DNA of 64,000 nt from Candidatus Bathyarchaeota archaeon A05DMB-2 (GTDB taxonomy: Archaea > Thermoproteota > Bathyarchaeia > Bathyarchaeales > Bathycorpusculaceae). This document shows, piece after piece, positions 33,601 to 42,700 of this stretch. A model generated the notes under the pieces. The model ran no database searches. It worked only from the letters and a program-made list of their open reading frames with translations, and was not told where the DNA came from. Position 1 is the stretch's first letter; the number at the start of each line of letters is the position of its first letter. The stretch is from positions 62,001 to 126,000 of the forward strand of contig JAAKEZ010000005.1 of NCBI GenBank assembly GCA_018475625.1, in the 5' to 3' direction. Position numbers and translations under genes: made by a program.

Positions 33601-34413
33601 ATGAGCCTGCGCGTGAACCCCGAATACGAGAAACTACTGCCTAAAATGTCCGCTGAAGAATTCGAAGAGCTCAAAGCCTCAATAAAACGGGAAGGACAGC
33701 ATTATCCCATCGTTGTAAACGAGGACTTGGAGGTTCTGGACGGGCACCACAGGTTCCGAGCATGCGTTGAGCTGGGCATCGAGCCAGATTTTGAGGTGCG
33801 CAAGTTCGAGGACAAGCTTCTGGAAAAGAAATTCGTCATCGAAACCAACCTGCGGCGACGCCACTTAACCAACTTTCAACTTGTGGAGTTGGCTGTGCCG
33901 TTGCTGGAGATTGAGAAGGCGCTCGCCAAGAAAAGGCAGGTGGAAGGCGGCAAAGCCGGACGTGACCTGCAATTGGGGTTAGCGCCAGATGACGCTAAGC
34001 CCGTTCCTAAAGGAAAAGCAACCGAGGCTGTTGCCAAGAAGGCAGGTGTTTCCACACGCACGTTTGAGAGGGGTAAGAAAATTTTAGAGATGGCGAGTGA
34101 GGAAGACAAGCAGCGGTTGCGGGAGGGAAAAGCCAGCATCTACAGGCTTTACCGTGAAGTGATTGCCAAAGAGCGAGGCTTTGACGCCGAGGCAGAAAGC
34201 AAATCGGCATTTTCCGTTGCTGAGACCGCGACACCCGACCCTCGTCTCGAGCAGAGCAGGGCTGAGTTGGCGGCGCTTCTGCAGAAGCTTGTTGAAAAAG
34301 AGGTTTTTTGTCTGTCTTGCGGGAACGCCATGTTCGAATGTAGCAAATGCCACAAGACGCTGCGAGACATGCTCAAGCAAAAGATACAAGACAAAAATTT
34401 CCAAAACATGTGA
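33601..34413 (+). CDS. ParB-like nuclease-fold protein with C-terminal zinc ribbon
   Basis: A 270-residue protein. Residues 1-85 are a ParB/Spo0J N-terminal domain (YEKLLPKMSAEEFEELKASIKREGQHYPIVVNED, then LDGHHRFRACVELG), with ETNLRRRHLTNFQLVELA following as in chromosomal ParB. Residues 135-160 form an HTH (AVAKKAGVSTRTFERGKKIL). The C-terminus has Cys237, Cys240, Cys247 and Cys250, a CX2C-X6-CX2C zinc knuckle. No ParA gene is nearby, so it may be a transcription regulator, not a partition protein. ATG 33601 lies 15 nt after GGGAGG, so the start could differ. Confidence 0.82.
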   Translation: MSLRVNPEYEKLLPKMSAEEFEELKASIKREGQHYPIVVNEDLEVLDGHHRFRACVELGIEPDFEVRKFEDKLLEKKFVIETNLRRRHLTNFQLVELAVPLLEIEKALAKKRQVEGGKAGRDLQLGLAPDDAKPVPKGKATEAVAKKAGVSTRTFERGKKILEMASEEDKQRLREGKASIYRLYREVIAKERGFDAEAESKSAFSVAETATPDPRLEQSRAELAALLQKLVEKEVFCLSCGNAMFECSKCHKTLRDMLKQKIQDKNFQNM

Positions 34414-34588
34414 ACCTCCTTGGCTTGCAGTCAGGCGTACAGAGCTTCAATTCCCGTTACTTGGGATTTTTCCATGCATCTCAAAAATTTTTTTGAGGCA
34501 GTTTCCAGGTTTGTTACCAAAGGACTTGGCGACCAGACTGAGAACATTCAAAATTACGCGCCATCAGATAAGCCGAAGGATTCTGAGA
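34414..34588. terminator. intergenic region with T-rich hairpin after the ParB-like gene
   Basis: A near-perfect palindrome, CTCAAAAAT/TTTTTTGAG, at 34480-34497 gives a short stem with a T tract on either strand, which fits an archaeal poly-T terminator for the ParB-like gene. Nothing else is evident. Confidence 0.4.
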
Positions 34589-34690
34589 ATGAATAAGCGT
34601 CTAAAGAGAGAGTTTGGCGAGCATGCTGTTGAAAACAAGTTGGCACTGGGCATTAATGAGCTCTGCTACAGATGCTTGGAGATGGAATAA
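34589..34690 (+). CDS. very small ORF or gene fragment
   Basis: ATG 34589 opens 33 residues, MNKRLKREFGEHAVENKLALG then INELCYRCLEME. The sequence looks protein-like (amphipathic helix plus a CX2C pair), yet no family is known to me and no ribosome site is strong. It may be a remnant. Confidence 0.25.
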   Translation: MNKRLKREFGEHAVENKLALGINELCYRCLEME

Positions 34691-34770
34691 ACACGAATTT
34701 TTGAGATGCAGCCAATCGAGAGAGGTTATTGAGGAAATCCTTTTATGACGTGGGTGCTTAATTGGAACAT

Positions 34771-35202
34771 ATGTCTTCGGTTAAGAAAATGGTTGTTGAA
34801 TGGAAAGGCAACTACCGATTAGAAGCTACGAACGAAAAAGGGATATCCGTAAAGTTTGATGCGCCAAAAGAGCATGGCGGAGAAGAAACAGCTCTTTCGC
34901 CCATGGAGAACGTCTTAGCCAGTCTTGCTGCGTGCAGTAGCTTTCACGTTTTAACAATCCTAAAGAAGAAAAGACAGAAAGTTACGGGCTACTCTGTGGA
35001 GGCTACTGCTGAAAGGAGAGAAGACCCGCCGCCAAGAGTATTCACGAAAATCCACCTCAAATATATAGTCAAAGGAGCGAACATAAGCCCAAGTGCAGTG
35101 GAAAGCGCCATCAAACTCTCAGAGGAAAAATACTGCTCCGTAGGCGGAATGCTGCAAAAAGCTGTACCAATCACTTCGTCTTATGAAATAATACCTGGAT
35201 AG
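34771..35202 (+). CDS. OsmC/Ohr family peroxidase-like protein
   Basis: A 143-residue OsmC-fold protein from ATG 34771 (TTG 34762 possible). The two redox cysteines are in LAACSSFHVLTIL (Cys55) and EEKYCSVGGML (Cys122), the pair that reduces organic hydroperoxides. SPMENVLASLAAC is the family signature. It stands at the left edge of the arsenic/metal-stress island, consistent with oxidative protection, although cotranscription with arsR is not supported (212-bp gap with a new promoter). Confidence 0.88.
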   Translation: MSSVKKMVVEWKGNYRLEATNEKGISVKFDAPKEHGGEETALSPMENVLASLAACSSFHVLTILKKKRQKVTGYSVEATAERREDPPPRVFTKIHLKYIVKGANISPSAVESAIKLSEEKYCSVGGMLQKAVPITSSYEIIPG

Positions 35203-35373
35203 AGATGGCGTCTCTTTTAACTTGATCTTATCTTCCGTTTCTTTTCACAGGTCATTTTTTGCCGCCATCTTTAGCAGTGTTTTTCTTAATTGCAGGTATA
35301 ATCTGCGCAATTTTGGTCAGTGTTATATTTTATTTCCGAAATTCTTGGAGTAATACCGCTGAAGTCTCTCTAT

Positions 35374-35392
35374 ATAACAATATTTAAATATT
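35374..35392 (+). promoter_or_regulatory. TATA-overlapping palindrome of arsR1
   Basis: ATAACAATATTTAAATATT. The 14-bp core AATATTTAAATATT is a perfect palindrome that contains an archaeal TATA box (TTTAAATA), 22-35 bp before the ATG, predicting an almost leaderless transcript. The same 19 bp occurs upstream of the ferredoxin gene and, with one change, of the DUF169 gene. Confidence 0.65.
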
Positions 35393-35413
35393 CGCTTTCC
35401 CTGTTCTCTGATA

Positions 35414-35737
35414 ATGCCCTCGCAAATCGACAACAAGAATAAGTTCAAAGCCAAAATCTTCAAGGCGCTGTCAGACCCTGTTCGGTTAAGCATATTGGAC
35501 TTTTTGCGTGACGGAGAAAAATGTGTGTGCGAAATCATACCTCACGTTAAATGTATTCAGCCCGTCGTCTCTCGGCATCTAAAAATCCTTAAGGACAGCG
35601 GAATAGTCATCGACAGAAAAGAAGGCAACAGAAGGCACTACTCAATAACAGACCCGCAAATATTTCAGATCATTGATGGAGTAACCCCTGAGCTTGCCAG
35701 CGCATTCACAAAGAGGATAATTGAACAAATCGCCTAA
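35414..35737 (+). CDS. ArsR-family metalloregulator 1
   Basis: A 107-residue winged-helix repressor. Cys37 and Cys39 lie in KCVCEI, the helix that binds As(III) or Sb(III) in ArsR; Cys47 nearby could be a third ligand. The recognition region is PVVSRHLKILKDSGIVIDRKEGNRRHYSI. Its promoter carries a palindromic operator candidate overlapping the TATA box, so autorepression released by metalloid is likely. A small Cys-rich gene follows 24 bp downstream. Confidence 0.9.
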   Translation: MPSQIDNKNKFKAKIFKALSDPVRLSILDFLRDGEKCVCEIIPHVKCIQPVVSRHLKILKDSGIVIDRKEGNRRHYSITDPQIFQIIDGVTPELASAFTKRIIEQIA

Positions 35738-35761
35738 ACCTAAGATCAGAATGTGTAGTTA

Positions 35762-35923
35762 GTGGATTACCCTCCATGCGAACGTAAGAATTGCATAAAC
35801 TGGAAAGAAGGACGCTGCGTTCTAAAAAACCCGGAGAAAAACGGAGGCGCCTGCCTAGATTATGAGGATGCGATGGATGCACTGAGGCTGAAGGCAGACG
35901 CGCTAAAGGGGTCGCTTGGTTAG
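35762..35923 (+). CDS. small cysteine-rich protein in the ars island
   Basis: GTG 35762 to TAG 35921-35923 encodes 53 residues, starting VDYPPCERKNCINWKEGRC and continuing KNPEKNGGACLDYEDAMDAL. Cysteines 6, 11, 19 and 31 (CX4C-X7C-X11C) suggest a metal or metalloid site. It lies 24 bp after arsR1 on the same strand and is probably cotranscribed. No known family; a metallothionein-like or chaperone role is a guess. Confidence 0.55.
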   Translation: MDYPPCERKNCINWKEGRCVLKNPEKNGGACLDYEDAMDALRLKADALKGSLG

Positions 35924-35932
35924 TCTCTATTG

Positions 35933-36109
35933 TTACCCATTGCCGCAAGCTAGTTCGCCCATTGCTTTGATGTATCTCTGTGCGTCTTCAAATGTTTTAA
36001 ACGGTCCATAAACAAAATCGTATTGCGGGTGGCTTTCTTTTGTCGGCGCGGTTTCGTACTCAAAAATCTCAGGTTTCGCTTTTTCTTTCATCCCAATCCA
36101 AATCCCCAT
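35933..36109 (-). CDS. small conserved-looking protein downstream of broken arsC
   Basis: ATG 36109, preceded by a strong GGAGAGG ribosome site 4-5 nt upstream, to TAA 35933-35935 encodes 58 residues: MGIWIGMKEKAKPEIFEYET, then APTKESHPQYDFVYGPFKTF, then EDAQRYIKAMGELACGNG. The GPFKTFEDAQRYI pattern resembles small proteins with a K-(T/S)-hydrophobic-E-A-x-x-(Y/F)-(V/I) helix seen in many archaeal short ORFs. It follows the arsC pseudogene on the same strand. Function unknown. Confidence 0.6.
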   Translation of the reverse strand: MGIWIGMKEKAKPEIFEYETAPTKESHPQYDFVYGPFKTFEDAQRYIKAMGELACGNG

Positions 36110-36140
36110 TTTTCCTCTCCTTTCCTCTCACGTGTTATAT

Positions 36141-36542
36141 TCATCGAGTTTGTTTAGCGATTAGGTTCTGCACTCTGCGCTTAATCTCGTCTCTGATTTC
36201 TCTCACTTTTTCGATAGGTTTTCCTTTTGGGTCTTCAAGCTTCCAATCAACTATGGGCTTAAAGAAAGGTCCAGGGCAAATTCCCTGATCATCGCAGCCC
36301 ATTGTAACAATCAGGTCTGCGTCTTGTGCCATCTGGAACGTGAGCATTTTAGGTTTATCCATTGAAATATCGATGCCCTTCTCCTTCATTACCTCTACTA
36401 CTGGGTTGACATTGTCAGTGGGTTTGTTGCTTGCACTTGAGATTGCAAGTTTTCCTTTTCAGTAGTAGTTTGCTAAGGCTTCTGCCATCTGACTTCTTCC
36501 AGTATTCTCAACACAAACAAAAAGTATCCGTTTCATTCTCAT
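36141..36542 (-). pseudogene. arsenate reductase (low-molecular-weight phosphatase type) with one in-frame TGA
   Basis: From ATG 36542 (or 36536) the frame reads MKRILFVCVENTGRSQMAEA then LANYY, then TGA at 36459-36461, then continues in the same frame KGKLAISSASNKPTDNVNPV to the end. The P-loop CVENTGRS and the later MGCDDQGICPG are intact, and the full length (about 133 residues) fits the family. The stop is at a surface position where relatives have Ser or Arg, so selenocysteine is unlikely. A downstream ATG could still make the last 82 residues, which lack the active site. Confidence 0.8.
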
Positions 36543-36570
36543 AGCCAAAAATAGAGGTCATAAAAAACGT

Positions 36571-36581
36571 ATTTAAATATG
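36571..36581 (+). promoter_or_regulatory. TATA/palindrome upstream of arsR2
   Basis: ATTTAAATATG within CGTATTTAAATATGTCGC, a weaker form of the palindrome seen before arsR1. It is about 30 bp upstream of the ATG and is divergent from the arsC pseudogene. Confidence 0.5.
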
Positions 36582-36609
36582 TCGCTATTAATTGTTATTT
36601 GAACGGATC

Positions 36610-36993
36610 ATGATCGAATCAAAAATTGACAAAAGGTTAAAGCGGTTGGCTGAATCAGGAATTTTCTCTTGCGATCGAGTTTCTGAATATGCGGATGAGC
36701 TAAGAGCGCTTGCCGACAAGGGAATGAGCAAAGAGGATGCTGAAACTAAAAGTAAAGTCTTTAGGGCCCTTGCTGACCCTACGAGATTGAGAGTTCTCGC
36801 ATTGTTGACTGCTCGGGAAATGTGCGTTTGCGAAGTCATGGTTGCATTGGAACTGACGCAGCCCACGGCGTCCCATCACTTAGGGATTCTTGAAAATGTG
36901 GGGTTGGTTAAGAAAAGGAAAGAGGGAAAATGGGTTTTCTACAGAATTGCCGATCTTGGAAAATTTGACGCGCTGAGCAACATGGCGATTTAA
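36610..36993 (+). CDS. ArsR-family metalloregulator 2
   Basis: A 127-residue repressor from ATG 36610 (TTG 36592 would add six residues). Cys72 and Cys74 (REMCVCEV) form the metalloid site; Cys21 in the N-terminal extension might add a ligand. Elements KVFRALADPTRLRVLALL and LTQPTASHHLGILENVGLVKKRKEGKWVFYRI are typical. An N-terminal helical extension of about 45 residues distinguishes it from arsR1. It probably controls the following Usp and ACR3 genes. Confidence 0.9.
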   Translation: MIESKIDKRLKRLAESGIFSCDRVSEYADELRALADKGMSKEDAETKSKVFRALADPTRLRVLALLTAREMCVCEVMVALELTQPTASHHLGILENVGLVKKRKEGKWVFYRIADLGKFDALSNMAI

Positions 36994-37028
36994 CGAGTTT
37001 GCATAGCAATAAATTTAAATATTTCAAT

Positions 37029-37039
37029 ATATTCGCTTT
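37029..37039 (+). promoter_or_regulatory. shared 11-mer in usp promoter
   Basis: ATATTCGCTTT occurs here and at 35388-35398 in the arsR1 promoter. Upstream, ATTTAAATATTT (37013-37024) provides a TATA box. The repeat supports joint control of the two units. Confidence 0.45.
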
Positions 37040-37060
37040 TCAGCTTAAGGTGCAGCAGAT

Positions 37061-37447
37061 TTGGAGAAGATATTGGTAGGTATTGATGGGTCAGAACACT
37101 CAAAGAAGGCGTTGACGGAAGCCATCAAGATTGCGAAGAAGTTTGAGGCTGAAGTTACTGTTGTTAATGTTTTTCACCCTGCACCTACGCCTTCTGCTCA
37201 CGAGTTTAGCCATAAAATTCTGGAAGAAGCTAAGACTGTTTTGGAAGACGAAAAAGTGAAGTACAAACTCGCTTCGGTTACTGGCACAAATCCTTCTAAG
37301 GTCATTACAGATATGGCTACACAAGGAAAATTTGATTTAATTGTGATCGGAAGCAGAGGAGTCGGTGCTGCGCATGCTCTAGTTTTGGGAAGCGTGTGCG
37401 GCAGAATATCTTGTGAATCTCCTGTAAACGTACTTATAGTAAAGTAA
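37061..37447 (+). CDS. universal stress protein (UspA family)
   Basis: A 128-residue Usp with the ATP-binding pattern GSRGVGAAHALVLGSVCGRIS (G-2x-G-9x-G-S type) and the start EKILVGIDGSEHSKKALTEAI. The start is TTG 37061 with AAGGTG upstream. It leads into the ACR3-type exporter 26 bp downstream, so the two probably form an operon. ATP binding is predicted; the role is generic stress protection. Confidence 0.88.
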   Translation: MEKILVGIDGSEHSKKALTEAIKIAKKFEAEVTVVNVFHPAPTPSAHEFSHKILEEAKTVLEDEKVKYKLASVTGTNPSKVITDMATQGKFDLIVIGSRGVGAAHALVLGSVCGRISCESPVNVLIVK

Positions 37448-37473
37448 TAGTTTATGGCAAAGAGGGCGAGGCT

Positions 37474-38511
37474 TTGGCAGAGGAGCAAGCGGTTAAACAT
37501 GAAGCATCTCTCGGTCTTTTCGAGAAATACTTAACGCTTTGGATAGCAATATGCATAATTGTGGGATTGCTCGTTGGGCGTTTTCTGCCACAGTTTGGGC
37601 AATTTATGGATTCGCTCAAATTTAACAAGTTGTCAATTCCTATAGGTATCCTTTTGTTTTTCATGATGTACCCCACAGTTGTCGGAATACGCTTTAGTGA
37701 CATAAAAAAGGCAGCTCATAATCCTAAGCCATTGCTCGTCACAATAATCGCGAACTGGGTAGTGGCTCCAATCATAATGACAGTTTACGCTAACATTCTT
37801 CTCGCTGGAAACCCAGAGTACATTGCAGGAGTCATACTTTTGGGATTATCACCTTGCACTGCCATGGTGATGTGGTGGATGTTTCTAGCAAAAGGAGACA
37901 TGGCCCAAGGCTTAATCAACACTGCAATCAACGCTTTGCTCATGCTTGCGCTTTATGCACCGCTTGCAGCTTTTTACCTAGGCGTCAGCAGCATTCCAGT
38001 TCCATGGGATTTGATCGGCACCAGCGTGCTGATTTTCATAGCGTTACCAGTGGCGGCGGGAGCAATTTCCCGCAAAATAATACTAGACAAAAAAGGTGAA
38101 AGCTGGTTTAACAATACGTATATTCCCACCCTCGGGAAAATATCTATAATTGCGTTACTGACAACCCTAATAGTGCTGTTTTCATTTGAGGGTGAAGTTA
38201 TACTCAATGATCCTCTTTTAGTCGCTTATCTTGCAGCGCCAAACCTGCTTCACTATGCTACCATGATCGCGTGGACCTATCCCTTAGGTTACTTCTTGGG
38301 CTGGAAATATGAAACAGCCATCGACACTACTCTAATAGGCAGCAGCAGCCACTTCGAAGTAGCAATAGCTGTGGCTACAACCCTCTATGGCATAGGTTCA
38401 GGCGCGGCTTTAGCAACAGTTATCGGACCATTAATGGAAGTGCCACTTATGCTTTCACTCGTCAAGCTTGGATTGCGGACCAGAAAATACTTTCCAAGGA
38501 AAAAGAAATAA
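37474..38511 (+). CDS. arsenite exporter, ACR3 type
   Basis: A 345-residue permease of the bile-acid/arsenite transporter superfamily with ten predicted membrane helices. Cys128 in GLSPCTAMVMWW corresponds to the conserved Cys of ACR3 (GLxxCxAMVxVW), and the AKGD after it and ATVIGPLMEVPLMLSLV near the end are family motifs. It exports As(OH)3 or antimonite. The start TTG 37474 has AGAGGG 7 nt upstream; the ATG at 37454 is in another frame. Its neighbours (two ArsR, ArsC, Usp) support arsenic resistance. Confidence 0.88.
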   Translation: MAEEQAVKHEASLGLFEKYLTLWIAICIIVGLLVGRFLPQFGQFMDSLKFNKLSIPIGILLFFMMYPTVVGIRFSDIKKAAHNPKPLLVTIIANWVVAPIIMTVYANILLAGNPEYIAGVILLGLSPCTAMVMWWMFLAKGDMAQGLINTAINALLMLALYAPLAAFYLGVSSIPVPWDLIGTSVLIFIALPVAAGAISRKIILDKKGESWFNNTYIPTLGKISIIALLTTLIVLFSFEGEVILNDPLLVAYLAAPNLLHYATMIAWTYPLGYFLGWKYETAIDTTLIGSSSHFEVAIAVATTLYGIGSGAALATVIGPLMEVPLMLSLVKLGLRTRKYFPRKKK

Positions 38512-38568
38512 GTAAAGGATGAAAACAGTTATCACCTTTAATTGTTTGAGTGGTAGCAAGGGGATTCT

Positions 38569-39155
38569 ATGGAAAAAGCGGGAAAATCAATTCATAAACC
38601 GAATGAATTAAAGGTCAGCGACACAATTTATGGAGTGGTAATTCCAACAATTGTAGCTTTTCTTATAGTTGGCATCTCAATGTCAACTTCTCCTGTCGCC
38701 ACAGGGCTCAAATACATTTTGTTGGAAGCAATTGTCGTGGTTGGGGTGCCCATGCTGATTGGGTTGGTGTGGAACCAGTGGGCAGGTGGAGCCGCAGGAT
38801 TCCTGATGGGCAGTCTTTACGCGCTGTATTTTGCAGATCAAGTCTACGCTTCTCAAGGAAGCGGCGACATAAGCTTGTTGGGCAACTGGTCAGTGCCATG
38901 CTGATAGGATATGTTGCTGGCGCGTTAAACAAGCGCTCAAGTAGTTACAAGAGAATGCTCATTTCTGGAGTTACTGCTGGAATTGTGGGGTCTTTTGTTG
39001 TTGTTTTTACTAGTAATTTTTCATCTATTCTGGGACCCGCAACACTAGGCGGTTCTGTTACGTCTTTTCTACCTCGGGTGCTTGCTGGGCTAATAGTTCC
39101 GCTGGTAGCTAGAGCATTCTTGCGTCATGGAGAAAACAGAAAAAGGAATGGGTAG
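38569..39155 (+). pseudogene. multi-pass membrane protein, frame-shifted
   Basis: The first frame (38569-38904) encodes two to three membrane helices including VGVPMLIGLVWNQWAGGAAGFLMGSLYAL; it stops at TGA after LLGNWSVPC. The second frame continues without a gap as QLVSAMLIGYVAGALNKRSS and ends at 39155. Adding one base near 38891 gives LLGNWVSAMLIGYVAG, matching LLGWVLSAMLIGYMAG of the intact paralog at 40506. It is either a recent pseudogene or a one-base assembly error. Confidence 0.75.
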
Positions 39156-39220
39156 TACCAAGAAAAATTTGCTTTTCTAACTGGGGTCAAAATTAGTGGC
39201 TGTTCATTCGGGGGTTCGGG

Positions 39221-39508
39221 CTAAGCTTTTGTTTCTTTCAGTTTGTCGATTATTTTTTGGGTTTCCTCTTCCGAAGGATGCGTAATGGCATCAGTTGGAC
39301 AGATGTCTTCGCATCCTCTGCAGAACACGACGCATGCATTTGGGTTTTTCACTATAGTTCTCTTTTCTCCGTCTTTCTCATCGAATTCGAAGACGCGATT
39401 GTGACAGTAGTCTACGCATTTCCCGCAAGTGATGCACTTATCGTAGTCTATCTTTGGCGCCCAAGGTATTTTGTTTCTTGGAACTCCTTCATATGTTTCT
39501 TCAATCAT
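39221..39508 (-). CDS. 2[4Fe-4S] ferredoxin
   Basis: A 95-residue ferredoxin with CITCGKCVDYCH (CX2CX2CX3C) and, after an insertion, CVVFCRGCEDICP (CX3CX2CX3C), enough for two 4Fe-4S clusters. The long N-terminus (ETYEGVPRNKIPWAPKIDYDK) resembles ferredoxins fused to, or partnering, reductases. Start ATG 39508 has AGAGG upstream. Its promoter carries the same 19-bp element as arsR1, so a metalloid-responsive electron-transfer role is inferred. Confidence 0.88.
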   Translation of the reverse strand: MIEETYEGVPRNKIPWAPKIDYDKCITCGKCVDYCHNRVFEFDEKDGEKRTIVKNPNACVVFCRGCEDICPTDAITHPSEEETQKIIDKLKETKA

Positions 39509-39561
39509 GTTTTGTCGCCTCTTCCGCTCTTCTCGGTTTGGGCTACGTTAATAATTATAAT

Positions 39562-39580
39562 AATATTTAAATATTGTTAT
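39562..39580 (-). promoter_or_regulatory. ArsR-type promoter element of the ferredoxin gene
   Basis: On the minus strand this reads ATAACAATATTTAAATATT, identical at all 19 positions to 35374-35392. It is 54-72 bp before the start codon, leaving a leader of about 35 nt. Confidence 0.6.
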
Positions 39581-39633
39581 GAGCTTTGTAGAATTTCATC
39601 GCCTTTTTGCCGGGTGTTTTAGAATATTAGTTC

Positions 39634-39652
39634 ATAACCATATTTAAATATT
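39634..39652 (+). promoter_or_regulatory. ArsR-type promoter element of the DUF169 gene
   Basis: ATAACCATATTTAAATATT differs from the arsR1 element by one base and, as in the ferredoxin copy, is preceded by C. It ends 24 bp before ATG 39677. Confidence 0.6.
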
Positions 39653-39676
39653 GAAGTTTACTCGGAACAATAAACA

Positions 39677-40429
39677 ATGGTGGCACTAATGAAAAACAAA
39701 AGTTTAAGCAAGAAACTGGAAGATATCTTGGGTTTAACTACTTCACCAGTGGCAATAAAACTCATAAAAGCAGACGAGCCTTTGCCGAGTATAAAAGAGC
39801 CAACTCAAAGAAGCAGATATTGCCAGCTGCTGATGCTAGCGAAGAAAGGTCAACCTCTGATGCTGACAGCTGAAAGTATCGCTTGCCCAGCAGCAAAAGC
39901 AGCCTTAGGACTGGGACCTTTACCAGAGAAAATATCAAGCGGAGAAATGCTCTGCACACTGGGGCTATTTATGAGCAAGGAGGCGGTAGCTAAAACAATG
40001 AGCATGATACCTAGAATAGAACTTGGATCGACAAAGGCTGTTGTCGCTGGGCCACTAAGAGACTTCCCTATGGAGCCAGATGTTATTGTGATTGAAAGCG
40101 TTCCAGAGCACATAATGTGGCTTGCCTTGGCCAGAAACTTCGAAGAGGGCGGAAGGCTCAGCTTCAACTCGTCGATTTTCCAAGCTGAATGCGTTGACGT
40201 AACAACCGTACCTTACCTAGCGGGTGAGTTGAACATGACCCCTGGCTGTTATGGATGCCGCCAAGCAACCGACACGCCGCCAGAGCACATGTTCATAGGA
40301 ATTCCCGCAAAACTTTTGCCCGAAATCGTTGAATCGTTGGAGGCCTTGTCCGAAAAAGCAATGAAAGCTGTTAGAGAAAAAAGCGTTTATGCTTTGTATG
40401 CAAAGGGACTAAGAGAGTCTAAAACGTAA
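39677..40429 (+). CDS. DUF169 family protein
   Basis: A 250-residue DUF169 protein with the family blocks SPVAIKLIKADEPLP, the Cys-containing RYCQLLMLAKKG and SIACPAAKAALGLG, and LNMTPGCYGCRQATDTPPEHMFIGIP. Several conserved cysteines suggest metal or cluster binding, but the family function is unknown. Start ATG 39677 (39689 possible). It shares the ArsR-type promoter element with arsR1 and the ferredoxin, with which it is divergent. Confidence 0.83.
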   Translation: MVALMKNKSLSKKLEDILGLTTSPVAIKLIKADEPLPSIKEPTQRSRYCQLLMLAKKGQPLMLTAESIACPAAKAALGLGPLPEKISSGEMLCTLGLFMSKEAVAKTMSMIPRIELGSTKAVVAGPLRDFPMEPDVIVIESVPEHIMWLALARNFEEGGRLSFNSSIFQAECVDVTTVPYLAGELNMTPGCYGCRQATDTPPEHMFIGIPAKLLPEIVESLEALSEKAMKAVREKSVYALYAKGLRESKT

Positions 40430-40505
40430 TGCTTTGATACTACGTGATTCTGGCAAAACCGTATATATTCAAGCCTATTAAAAACTGCCCACGGGAAGAG
40501 TGCAA

Positions 40506-41135
40506 ATGGAATTAGGATGGAAGGACTGGACTCGAAGTGATATCATCTATGGAATTATAGCACCAATTGTCGTGGTTTTGATAATAGTCGGCCTTTCCTT
40601 GGTTGGTACCTTCGCTATGAGAGGGGGAGGAGGCATGAACGGCTCTCTGGGAATTGTTATTGGCATCATAAGTGAGATTGAGGAAATGGTCGTCATTGTG
40701 GGGGTTCCATTGCTGCTCGGCCTGATTTGGAACCGATGGGCAGGCGGCGCCTCGGGATTTCTGCTGGGAAGCATCTACGCTATGTGGTTTCAGGTCAAGT
40801 ATGGCGCGTTCTCTTCTGGGACTTCTCCCAGCATGGCTATGGGTTTTGGTCCAACGCTGTTGGGCTGGGTTCTTAGCGCCATGCTGATAGGGTACATGGC
40901 TGGAGCGTTGAATAAGCGCTCCGAGAACTTTCGCAGAATGGTAATCGCTGGAGTAGTCTCCACAACTGTGGGCGGAGTGTTCCTCTTTGGGATGTTTCAG
41001 CTTTCGCCTTCAAACGTGATAACTGGGATTGATGGTTTTTTGCTTACTGTGCTGACGCGCACAGCTACGGGAGTCATAATTCCAATCATAGCTAAGGTTT
41101 TCATGTGGTACGGAGTTGCTATGCATAAAAAATGA
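40506..41135 (+). CDS. multi-pass membrane protein, intact paralog of 38569
   Basis: A 209-residue protein with about six membrane segments, ATG 40506 (GTG 40500 possible). It shares VGVPLLLGLIWNRWAGGASGFLLGSIYAM and SAMLIGYMAGALNKRSENFRR with the broken gene at 38569. A TATA box GTATATATTC lies at about 40460. No characterised relative is known to me; its location implies a link to metal stress but nothing in the sequence proves it. Confidence 0.7.
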   Translation: MELGWKDWTRSDIIYGIIAPIVVVLIIVGLSLVGTFAMRGGGGMNGSLGIVIGIISEIEEMVVIVGVPLLLGLIWNRWAGGASGFLLGSIYAMWFQVKYGAFSSGTSPSMAMGFGPTLLGWVLSAMLIGYMAGALNKRSENFRRMVIAGVVSTTVGGVFLFGMFQLSPSNVITGIDGFLLTVLTRTATGVIIPIIAKVFMWYGVAMHKK

Positions 41136-41165
41136 CCTGCTCTTGAGAATAGAATAAGTCGCCAA

Positions 41166-41276
41166 TTTCTTGATTGTTACTAATTCATCGTTCAGTTTCC
41201 ACATATTCGAAGGTACGTTTTCAATGGCTAATCGCTTGAGTTCTTCCCAGCTTTTGACCCTGACGACGCGTTCACT
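41166..41276 (-). pseudogene. N-terminal fragment of a small conserved protein
   Basis: On the minus strand, immediately after a stop, the frame reads SERVVRVKSWEELKRLAIEN and then VPSNMWKLNDELVTIKKLAT. The first half matches a start pattern (R-V-V-R-V-K-S-W-E-E-L-K-R-L) of a small protein common in TACK archaea, but the second half does not continue it and no start codon precedes it. Probable relic next to the integrase. Confidence 0.35.
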
Positions 41277-41347
41277 CTAGAGCATATTGAAAGAATTGAA
41301 TCGATGTCATTAAAAAGCTGATACGCCATAGTTACTTCTCGCCAAAT

Positions 41348-42307
41348 ATGCGTCAAGGAGACGAAAAATTTGGGTCCGGAACAGCAAAGCATACAACAAG
41401 TTCCGGAAGAAGAGACGACGTCAAAGGAAAACTAGTACAATTCGCATGGCGACTGCAACAAGAAGGATATGCGTTCGAAACAGTCAGAGTAAACAGCAGC
41501 TGCCTAAACGCCCTAATAAACAGAGGCGCCAACTTGGCCGATCCAGAAAGCGTCAAAGAAGTGCTCGCAAAAGAGCAAAAATGGAGCCCAGCAAGAAAAC
41601 GCAACGCAATAAACGCCTACACACTGTTCCTGAAAATAAACGGATTAATCTGGAGCAAACCAAAATGCAAAGTTCCACAGAAATTCCCGTTCATACCTAC
41701 GGAACAAGAGATAGACGCCCTAATCGCGGGATCAGGCAGAAAAAACGCAGCCTACCTGCAGCTTCTCAAAGAAACAGCCATGCGCTCAGGAGAAGCTAAA
41801 CGCTTAGAATGGACAGACATAGACCGCGAAAAAAACATAATAACTCTAAACGCTCCCGAAAAAGGCTCAAACCCAAGAATGTGGCGGGTAACCCCAACCC
41901 TCATAGAAATGCTAAACGCGCTTCCAAGAACCAGCTCACAAGTTTTCACCGGCTCCCTAAGAGCAATGAAAACAACCTTCGCCAAAACCCGCAAACGACT
42001 AGCACAAACACTGCAAAACCCAAGACTGCTAAAAATAACTTTCCACACGCTCAGACATTGGAAAGCCACAATGTTCTATCATCAAACCAAAGACCCATAC
42101 TACGTACAACACTTCCTTGGACATAAATCTCTAAAATCAACCGAGATATACATAAACATCGAACACACCTTATTCGAAGCTGGCGCCAACGACCAATTCA
42201 CAGTGCGAATCGCTAAGAAACCAGAAGAAATCAAAGAGCTGCTAGAAGTAGGCTTTGAATACGTCTGCCAAAAAGATACGTTAATATTCCTGAGGAAACG
42301 CAAATGA
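41348..42307 (+). CDS. tyrosine recombinase / integrase
   Basis: A 319-residue site-specific recombinase. The N-terminal SAM-like core-binding domain covers about residues 20-110. The catalytic residues are all visible: Arg in ETAMRSGEAKRLEW, HTLRH (HxxR), the later His in LGHKSLKSTEIY and the nucleophile Tyr in TEIYINIEH. A C-terminal extension of about 55 residues follows. The stop lies 45 bp before the tRNA-His gene, a classic integration target, but no flanking element or second att site is visible. Its coding strand is A/C-rich. Confidence 0.88.
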   Translation: MRQGDEKFGSGTAKHTTSSGRRDDVKGKLVQFAWRLQQEGYAFETVRVNSSCLNALINRGANLADPESVKEVLAKEQKWSPARKRNAINAYTLFLKINGLIWSKPKCKVPQKFPFIPTEQEIDALIAGSGRKNAAYLQLLKETAMRSGEAKRLEWTDIDREKNIITLNAPEKGSNPRMWRVTPTLIEMLNALPRTSSQVFTGSLRAMKTTFAKTRKRLAQTLQNPRLLKITFHTLRHWKATMFYHQTKDPYYVQHFLGHKSLKSTEIYINIEHTLFEAGANDQFTVRIAKKPEEIKELLEVGFEYVCQKDTLIFLRKRK

Positions 42308-42352
42308 TAACAAAACTTGATGTCGCCAGTGGCCGAAGACTTCCAAAAAGTG

Positions 42353-42425
42353 GCCGAGGTGAGGTAGCTTGGCAGCCTAGAGGCCTGTGGAGCCTTTTGC
42401 CAGGGTTCAAATCCCTGCCTCGGCC
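42353..42425 (+). tRNA. tRNA-His (GTG)
   Basis: The acceptor stem GCCGAGG/CCTCGGC pairs at all 7 positions, with G-1 at 42352 opposite C73 at 42425, the identity elements of tRNA-His. The D arm is AGG...CCT, the anticodon arm GAGGC-CTGTGGA-GCCTT with anticodon GTG, and the T arm CAGGG-TTCAAAT-CCCTG. No intron and no encoded CCA. A 9-bp copy of its 5' end (AGTGGCCGA) lies 21 bp upstream. Confidence 0.92.
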
Positions 42426-42700
42426 CCTCCGTAGCGGTTTGTACCCAGACGCTAACGAGTTTTCAAGGCAGATCTTTGAACCCAGCCAAAAGGCTCAACG
42501 ACATGCTTGGTGTCGTGTCTTGTGTTCCTATAATCGGGTACCCCACGGATGACTGCGGCATCCCCGGCGCTCAGAAGAAAAGGTGTCCGCTACGCCACAG
42601 ACTAAAGGCGGCTAGAGACTGTTCCGAGCGCTAGTACAGCGAAGCTTCAGGTAAAGGTTTAAGAGTTACGTTTAGGCTTTATCTGCGTCAGGTGTAAAGC
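42426..42700. other. GC-rich intergenic region between tRNA-His and S30e
   Basis: No protein frame is persuasive. A short stem ACGACA/TGTCGT surrounds 42510-42528, and GC-rich segments at about 42550-42640 could fold. A small RNA is possible but no known family was recognised. The S30e promoter (GGTTTAAGAG near 42655) lies at its end. Confidence 0.3.

Follow-up and report, generated by a model that had tools for sequence, protein, structure and literature searches.

Bacterial regulators of the ArsR/SmtB family that carry a CxC motif control autoregulated ars regulons, and CxC is the metalloid-sensing motif of these proteins. Among archaea, an ArsR-like regulator that excludes TBP and TFB has a precedent in MsvR of methanogens. 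MsvR has an ArsR-like dimer region and boxes located at the BRE/TATA elements, MthMsvR blocks the binding of both TBP and TFB at its own promoter, and the msvR transcript of M. acetivorans is nearly leaderless (PMC3729527). We propose a similar mode of repression for the protein described here, ArsR1. MsvR differs in that its boxes read TTCGTA-N4-TACGAA and are not the TATA box itself, and in that its signal is redox (PMC3729527). Moreover, ArsR1 scores only 32 bits against the MsvR model, whose cut-off is 220.

The stretch of DNA analysed, 64 kb in length and called the window throughout, comprises positions 62001-126000 of contig C103, in a genome of 2,477,615 bases and 110 contigs. Among named genomes its closest relatives are Candidatus Bathyarchaeota MAGs. 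At about 34.7-41.1 kb the window holds an arsenic island composed of OsmC, arsR1, an arsC-like gene (minus strand), arsR2, usp, ACR3, two segments encoding related membrane proteins, a ferredoxin gene (minus strand) and a DUF169 gene. The features that concern us are as follows; the 24-bp palindrome and the 19-mer are defined below.

35374..35397, plus strand: predicted arsR1 operator/TATA element, ATAACAATATTTAAATATTCGCTT; upstream arm and core intact, downstream arm degenerate
35414..35737, plus strand: arsR1, ArsR/SmtB-family repressor with a CVC motif (C37, C39)
36141..36542, minus strand: arsC-like (LMWPc) gene with an in-frame TGA interrupting it
36563..36586, no strand assigned: another TATA-centred near-palindrome, in the gap between arsR2 and the arsC-like gene, which are divergent; TATA box within AACGTATTTAAATATGTCG
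36592..36993, plus strand: arsR2, second ArsR; ATG 36610 is a possible start
37005..37028, plus strand: TATA region of the usp promoter, with 5 mismatches over the 19-mer and 8 over the 24-mer; not of the ArsR1 type
37061..37447, plus strand: universal stress protein (usp)
37474..38511, plus strand: ACR3 arsenite efflux transporter (TIGR00832, 340.6 bits, cut-off 282.8)
39221..39508, minus strand: 2[4Fe-4S]-type ferredoxin, predicted ArsR1 target
39557..39580, minus strand: predicted ferredoxin operator/TATA element, ATAACAATATTTAAATATTATTAT; one mismatch to the 24-bp palindrome
39634..39657, plus strand: predicted DUF169 operator/TATA element, ATAACCATATTTAAATATTGAAGT; downstream arm degenerate
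39677..40429, plus strand: DUF169 (PF02596) protein, predicted ArsR1 target; six Cys invariant among 7 close relatives
40500..41135, plus strand: TM_B membrane protein; operator in 12/31 unique upstreams of relatives, none at the window copy

The locus resembles bacterial ArsR regulons in that ArsR1 combines an HTH_5 domain with CxC, an inverted repeat precedes its own gene, and ACR3 and ArsC-like genes lie nearby. It is unlike them in that the predicted ArsR1 operator is centred on an archaeal TATA box, and in that the predicted targets include a ferredoxin and a DUF169 protein. The original prediction had tied metalloid control to ferredoxin and DUF169 in place of classical ars genes, which was wrong, given the presence of ACR3 and of the broken arsC-like gene. 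The in-frame TGA of the latter recurs in the related locus L120, and other relatives have intact copies; the interruption may reflect a pseudogene or a mistake in the assembly. Locus L120 (contig C32 of genome G067, 8752 bases) is 99.28% identical over 8750 bases to window positions 33727-42476 and is binned in another genus, so that either the entire ars island was recently transferred or the contig is mis-binned. The TM_A gene (38569-39155) is apparently frameshifted: it is split into two ORFs that overlap, and the second resembles the C-terminal part of TM_B.

Two further kinds of locus bear comparison. The first are modules of a thioredoxin-like protein and an ArsP-type permease next to ArsR (MTH895/ArsE model TIGR00412, PF03773). 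In relatives of the window, a thioredoxin-like gene, scoring slightly below cut-off against TIGR00412 (54.6 bits versus 62), is divergent from ArsR1 and shares one operator with it, and a PF03773 permease lies near these loci. The window differs from such modules: it has no gene in that place, and its ferredoxin and DUF169 genes have site copies of their own. The second are the hgcAB loci, in which an ArsR-like regulator and ars genes have a methyltransferase and a 2[4Fe-4S] ferredoxin as neighbours (PMC7438021). The difference is that the ferredoxin of the window fails the HgcB model, NF040864, with 36.2 bits against a cut-off of 99.

The original prediction rested on a 19-bp sequence, the 19-mer, said to be identical before arsR1 and ferredoxin and to have one mismatch before DUF169. 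Our scan of both strands of the 64-kb window, with up to three mismatches allowed, bears this out. Exact matches occur at 35374-35392 (plus strand, before arsR1) and 39562-39580 (minus strand, before ferredoxin), and matches with one mismatch at 39557-39575 (plus strand) and 39634-39652 (plus strand, before DUF169). The number expected by chance in the window is 0.01, and none of 100 shuffles reached four. Beyond these best four, the matches with four mismatches are the same sites read backwards, and those with five are arsR2 and usp. The ferredoxin and DUF169 genes are divergent, and their separate copies of the element lie 77 bp apart. The palindromic core that was said to overlap the TATA box does so: AATATTTAAATATT is a perfect 14-bp palindrome with TTTAAATA inside it.

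Since TTTAAATA has nothing unusual for an archaeal TATA box and is found 12 times in the window with both strands combined, the shared sequence might be nothing but the strong TATA context of AT-rich promoters, recurring by chance. A motif scan of the whole genome argues otherwise. Beyond the four places of the window, no match to the 19-mer within one mismatch exists in the 2.48 Mb; there are three further places, each with three mismatches and all on other contigs. The core is present at two exact places and three one-mismatch places, DUF169 included. The 19-mer does not stand before many unrelated promoters. Given this rarity and the chance expectation of 0.01, the objection that it is just a strong TATA context fails. 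The genome-wide scan, together with the same-island controls reported below, leads us to reject ordinary TATA context, and with the element conserved across phyla as well we regard coincidence as exceedingly improbable. An 11-mer, ATATTCGCTTT, had also been proposed as common to arsR1 and usp. It is indeed exact at two places in the window, but the closest ArsR1 relatives have TACTT or CATTT at that position; the 11-mer is therefore not conserved, the link is unsupported, and we have rejected it as a shared element.

When the upstream regions of ArsR1 orthologues are aligned, the 19-mer proves to be 19 of the 24 bp of a TATA-centred palindrome, ATAACAATATTTAAATATTGTTAT (the 24-mer), with TTTAAATA at positions 10-17. 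In 48 non-redundant archaeal upstreams, the information content has sharp edges, going up at position 1 and down past position 24. Positions 10-16, TTTAAAT, hardly vary at all, and conservation extends to both outer arms, more weakly in the downstream one. A variant, ATAACAACTTTTAAATATTGTTAT, is found in several genomes of genus g4 and in genome G007 of genus g3.

The element reaches well beyond the family. We scanned named genomes for ArsR1 homologues and considered the best 80 of 545 loci, of which 61 are archaeal and 19 bacterial. Within 120 bp upstream, the element is present at up to five mismatches in 53/61 archaeal homologues and 0/19 bacterial ones among these best 80; the sequences upstream of the bacterial homologues are different ones, and several of them contain a ATATGATTATATAATCATAT-like palindrome. 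Among the archaeal loci are ones from Nezhaarchaeota, Hadarchaeum (Hadarchaeota), Terraquivivens and other Nitrososphaeria, Methanomethyliaceae, Heimdallarchaeota and another Asgard MAG. For example, a Nezhaarchaeota locus (L167) has one copy between ArsR1 and a ferredoxin gene and another before a thioredoxin-like gene. The archaeal homologues among the best 80 without the element at five mismatches or fewer are L189, L190, L196, L197, L203, L205, L212 and L216. Thus the earlier observation is correct but understated, having missed both the 24-bp palindrome and its conservation across archaeal phyla.

Within the family, the presence of the site follows that of ArsR1. The exact 14-bp core occurs at 67 places in 45 of 90 family genomes; assigned through ORFs of at least 70 aa within 125 nt, 40 of these places stand directly before an ArsR1 orthologue, 11 before a ferredoxin with no ArsR1 at the site, and one each before a TM_B relative (L110) and a redoxin-like gene (L075); a twelfth ferredoxin site, L111, emerged from the gene-by-gene count below. 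The other 13 lie at unrelated genes, mostly without arms (L082 has one), and speak against the regulon. Four of the 13 (L083, L086, L089 and L094) are one conserved divergent promoter, in four genomes and with different flanks, that separates a protein of about 135 aa from one of about 360 aa. Dividing the genomes by whether they encode an ArsR1 orthologue (E <= 1.2e-25), we find the exact core in 40/46 genomes with ArsR1 and 5/44 without (Fisher 2e-13, although p-values here overstate the evidence because the family genomes are related). Among the matches listed, the 24-mer with at most one mismatch is present in 28/46 and 0/44 genomes, respectively. Likewise, with identical upstreams merged and a further G043 copy left out as too near a contig end, ferredoxin-like genes have the site in 34/61 cases in ArsR1 genomes versus 0/13 elsewhere; that 27/61 copies in ArsR1 genomes lack it counts against the regulon. 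A pattern search across the order matched 47/162 genomes, 39 of them from the window's family. The genome-wide rarity of the site and its association with ArsR1 in the 90 genomes support the claim that ferredoxin and DUF169 belong to an ArsR1 regulon marked by a common operator that overlaps TATA, and comparison strongly supports this predicted regulon.

We also counted, gene by gene, the unique 200-bp upstreams with at most five mismatches to the 24-mer in 134 records. Because these records were partly selected for holding the core, the proportions given for ArsR1 and its neighbours do not represent a random sample; the controls were drawn from this same set. The site is found in 48/52 upstreams of ArsR1, 14/17 of the thioredoxin-like gene, 34/74 of ferredoxin, 12/31 of TM_B and 7/34 of the uncharacterised K2; since TM_A and TM_B are related, their counts overlap. 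For DUF169 it is found in 4/12 at five mismatches and 6/12 at up to seven, and the other 6/12, with nothing within eight mismatches of the 24-mer, tell against the regulon. Among controls at five mismatches, the counts are ACR3 0/24, ArsR2 0/20, ArsM 0/18, smallCys 0/17, Usp 0/9, OsmC 0/5 and ArsC 1/23, and shuffled upstreams give about 0. Thus the suggestion that the arsR2 and usp promoters carry weaker forms of the ArsR1 site is rejected; they carry different elements.

These controls also bear on which repressor uses the site. The arsC/arsR2 promoter and ArsR2 relatives carry another TATA-centred palindrome of the AACGTATTTAAATACGTT type (AACGTATTTAAATACGTT or AACATATTTAAATATTTTGTT in the relatives), with similar arms (AAC...GTT), and ArsR2, or both repressors together, might on this ground bind the ArsR1-type operator. 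However, that operator is present within five mismatches in 0/20 upstreams of ArsR2, a close ArsR2 is recognised at only 16/58 loci, and the site follows ArsR1; we judge such binding quite unlikely. As a lead only, the two ArsR proteins, with arms differently spaced around TATA, may govern two sub-regulons side by side.

The placement and symmetry of the 24-mer are informative as well. In 37/53 archaeal homologues with the element, from the best 80 of 545 loci, it ends 15-17 nt before the extrapolated ArsR1 start. Its centre would thus lie about 28 nt before the ATG, the distance expected of a TATA box when the transcript has little or no leader; a TATA box centred 27 nt upstream of a mapped start has been described (PMC3729527). 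At divergent sites (n=49) both arms match, with a mean of 4.17 of 5, whereas at single-gene sites (n=23) the upstream arm retains 4.52 of 5 and the downstream arm 3.04 (Wilcoxon p = 0.0024). The ferredoxin site of the window was scored as divergent, the DUF169 start being no more than 110 nt away, yet DUF169 has its own TATA box. In the window, the downstream arm is degenerate at arsR1 (CGCTT) and at DUF169 (GAAGT), which is why 19 bp, and not 24, were first noticed. A strictly symmetric ArsR1 operator does not predict this decay; either the upstream arm would also serve TFB, or a weaker half-site would be tolerated at single-gene promoters.

The asymmetry and the spacing are what one would expect if the element were a specialised BRE plus TATA promoter for a particular TFB/TBP pair, its palindromic look coming from the many copies placed between divergent genes and serving both, with ArsR1 as only one client. 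Such a promoter should not, however, track a single repressor gene as the element does, nor should ferredoxins lack it where ArsR1 is absent, and ACR3, ArsR2, Usp and ArsM genes of the same islands do not use it. We therefore consider a specialised promoter unlikely.

We turn to the mechanism. ArsR1 is an ArsR-family winged HTH protein (PF01022, 58.1 bits, cut-off 22; NF033788, 92.8 bits, cut-off 55), and the inverted repeat at its own promoter is a predicted operator. From the site, its rarity and position, its tracking of ArsR1 and its recurrence at the same targets in other genomes, we infer that ArsR1 binds the element and represses arsR1, ferredoxin and DUF169 by hiding the TATA box, As(III) bringing release; we think this likely, with good confidence. 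An ArsR1 dimer would most likely occupy the palindrome with TTTAAATA at its centre, keeping TBP and TFB off all three promoters, until an inducer that reacts with thiols, most likely As(III) acting on CxC, frees them. Release by As(III) is suggested by the CxC motif and by the arsenic island. Thus arsR1, ferredoxin and DUF169 very probably belong to one arsenic-response circuit.

The inducer could instead be something other than arsenic, ArsR1 being a thiol/redox or other metal sensor for ferredoxin, DUF169 and thioredoxin-like proteins. The targets are redox or Cys-rich proteins, a heavy-metal P-type ATPase is encoded at 12/58 related loci, and the ArsR-like MsvR is redox-sensitive (PMC3729527). 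Two ArsR1 copies (L125 and L128) lack one CxC cysteine, which counts against our main reading. Against a non-arsenic signal, the 58 loci include ACR3 at 24, ArsC-like genes at 20, an ArsP-type permease at 14 and ArsM at 11, and the CxC motif is conserved (C37 in 14/14 and C39 in 13/14 aligned orthologues). A non-arsenic signal is, to our mind, rather unlikely, and we retain As(III) as the probable inducer.

The best hint at the role of the ferredoxin comes from genome G081, in which a single reading frame encodes a fusion of ferredoxin and arsenite methyltransferase (L265:727-1782, minus strand; 352 aa; NF008823, 327 bits, cut-off 263). The DUF169 protein scores 205.4 bits against PF02596 (cut-off 27), and three of its six invariant cysteines, C49, C70 and C172, are kept in all 28 aligned sequences. 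Its orthologues, 12 hits of at least 62% identity in 11/90 family genomes, face a site or lie within or near ars loci; their small number weighs against the regulon. PF02596 itself is present in 46/250 genomes of the phylum, and none of 26 DUF169 loci found by tblastn has a site within eight mismatches; we therefore reject DUF169 as a general ars gene and limit its link with the ArsR1 site to one subfamily. A structure model from 7 sequences was poor (pLDDT 53.8) and one from 28 sequences reached a mean pLDDT of 91.3; against solved structures, Foldseek returned 0 matches at E<=0.001, and the best VIA-align Z was 4.2, so that none of them is a clear relative. Judged from listings, we found no literature tying DUF169 to arsenic and, by title, none on Bathyarchaeal ArsR promoters, although absence from print is unproven.

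A broader and more tentative reading, which we think possible but somewhat doubtful, is that the 24-bp palindrome combines an ArsR operator with an archaeal core promoter that works in two directions, across phyla including Asgard; that single-gene sites keep only the upstream arm, which serves both TFB and the repressor; and that ferredoxin and DUF169 supply electrons for the reduction or methylation of arsenic in archaea, a role to which the fusion of ferredoxin to ArsM points.

The analysis provides, from sequence alone, a predicted operator and testable targets for an ArsR regulon of uncultured archaea. The ArsR1 regulon would join ars genes to electron-transfer and thiol proteins, namely ferredoxin and DUF169, to which relatives add a membrane protein and one that is thioredoxin-like. 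The arsenic response would thereby be tied to a ferredoxin and to the uncharacterised DUF169 family. The element also presents a clean case for studying how TBP, TFB and a bacterial-type repressor can all make use of a single short sequence, and in both directions.
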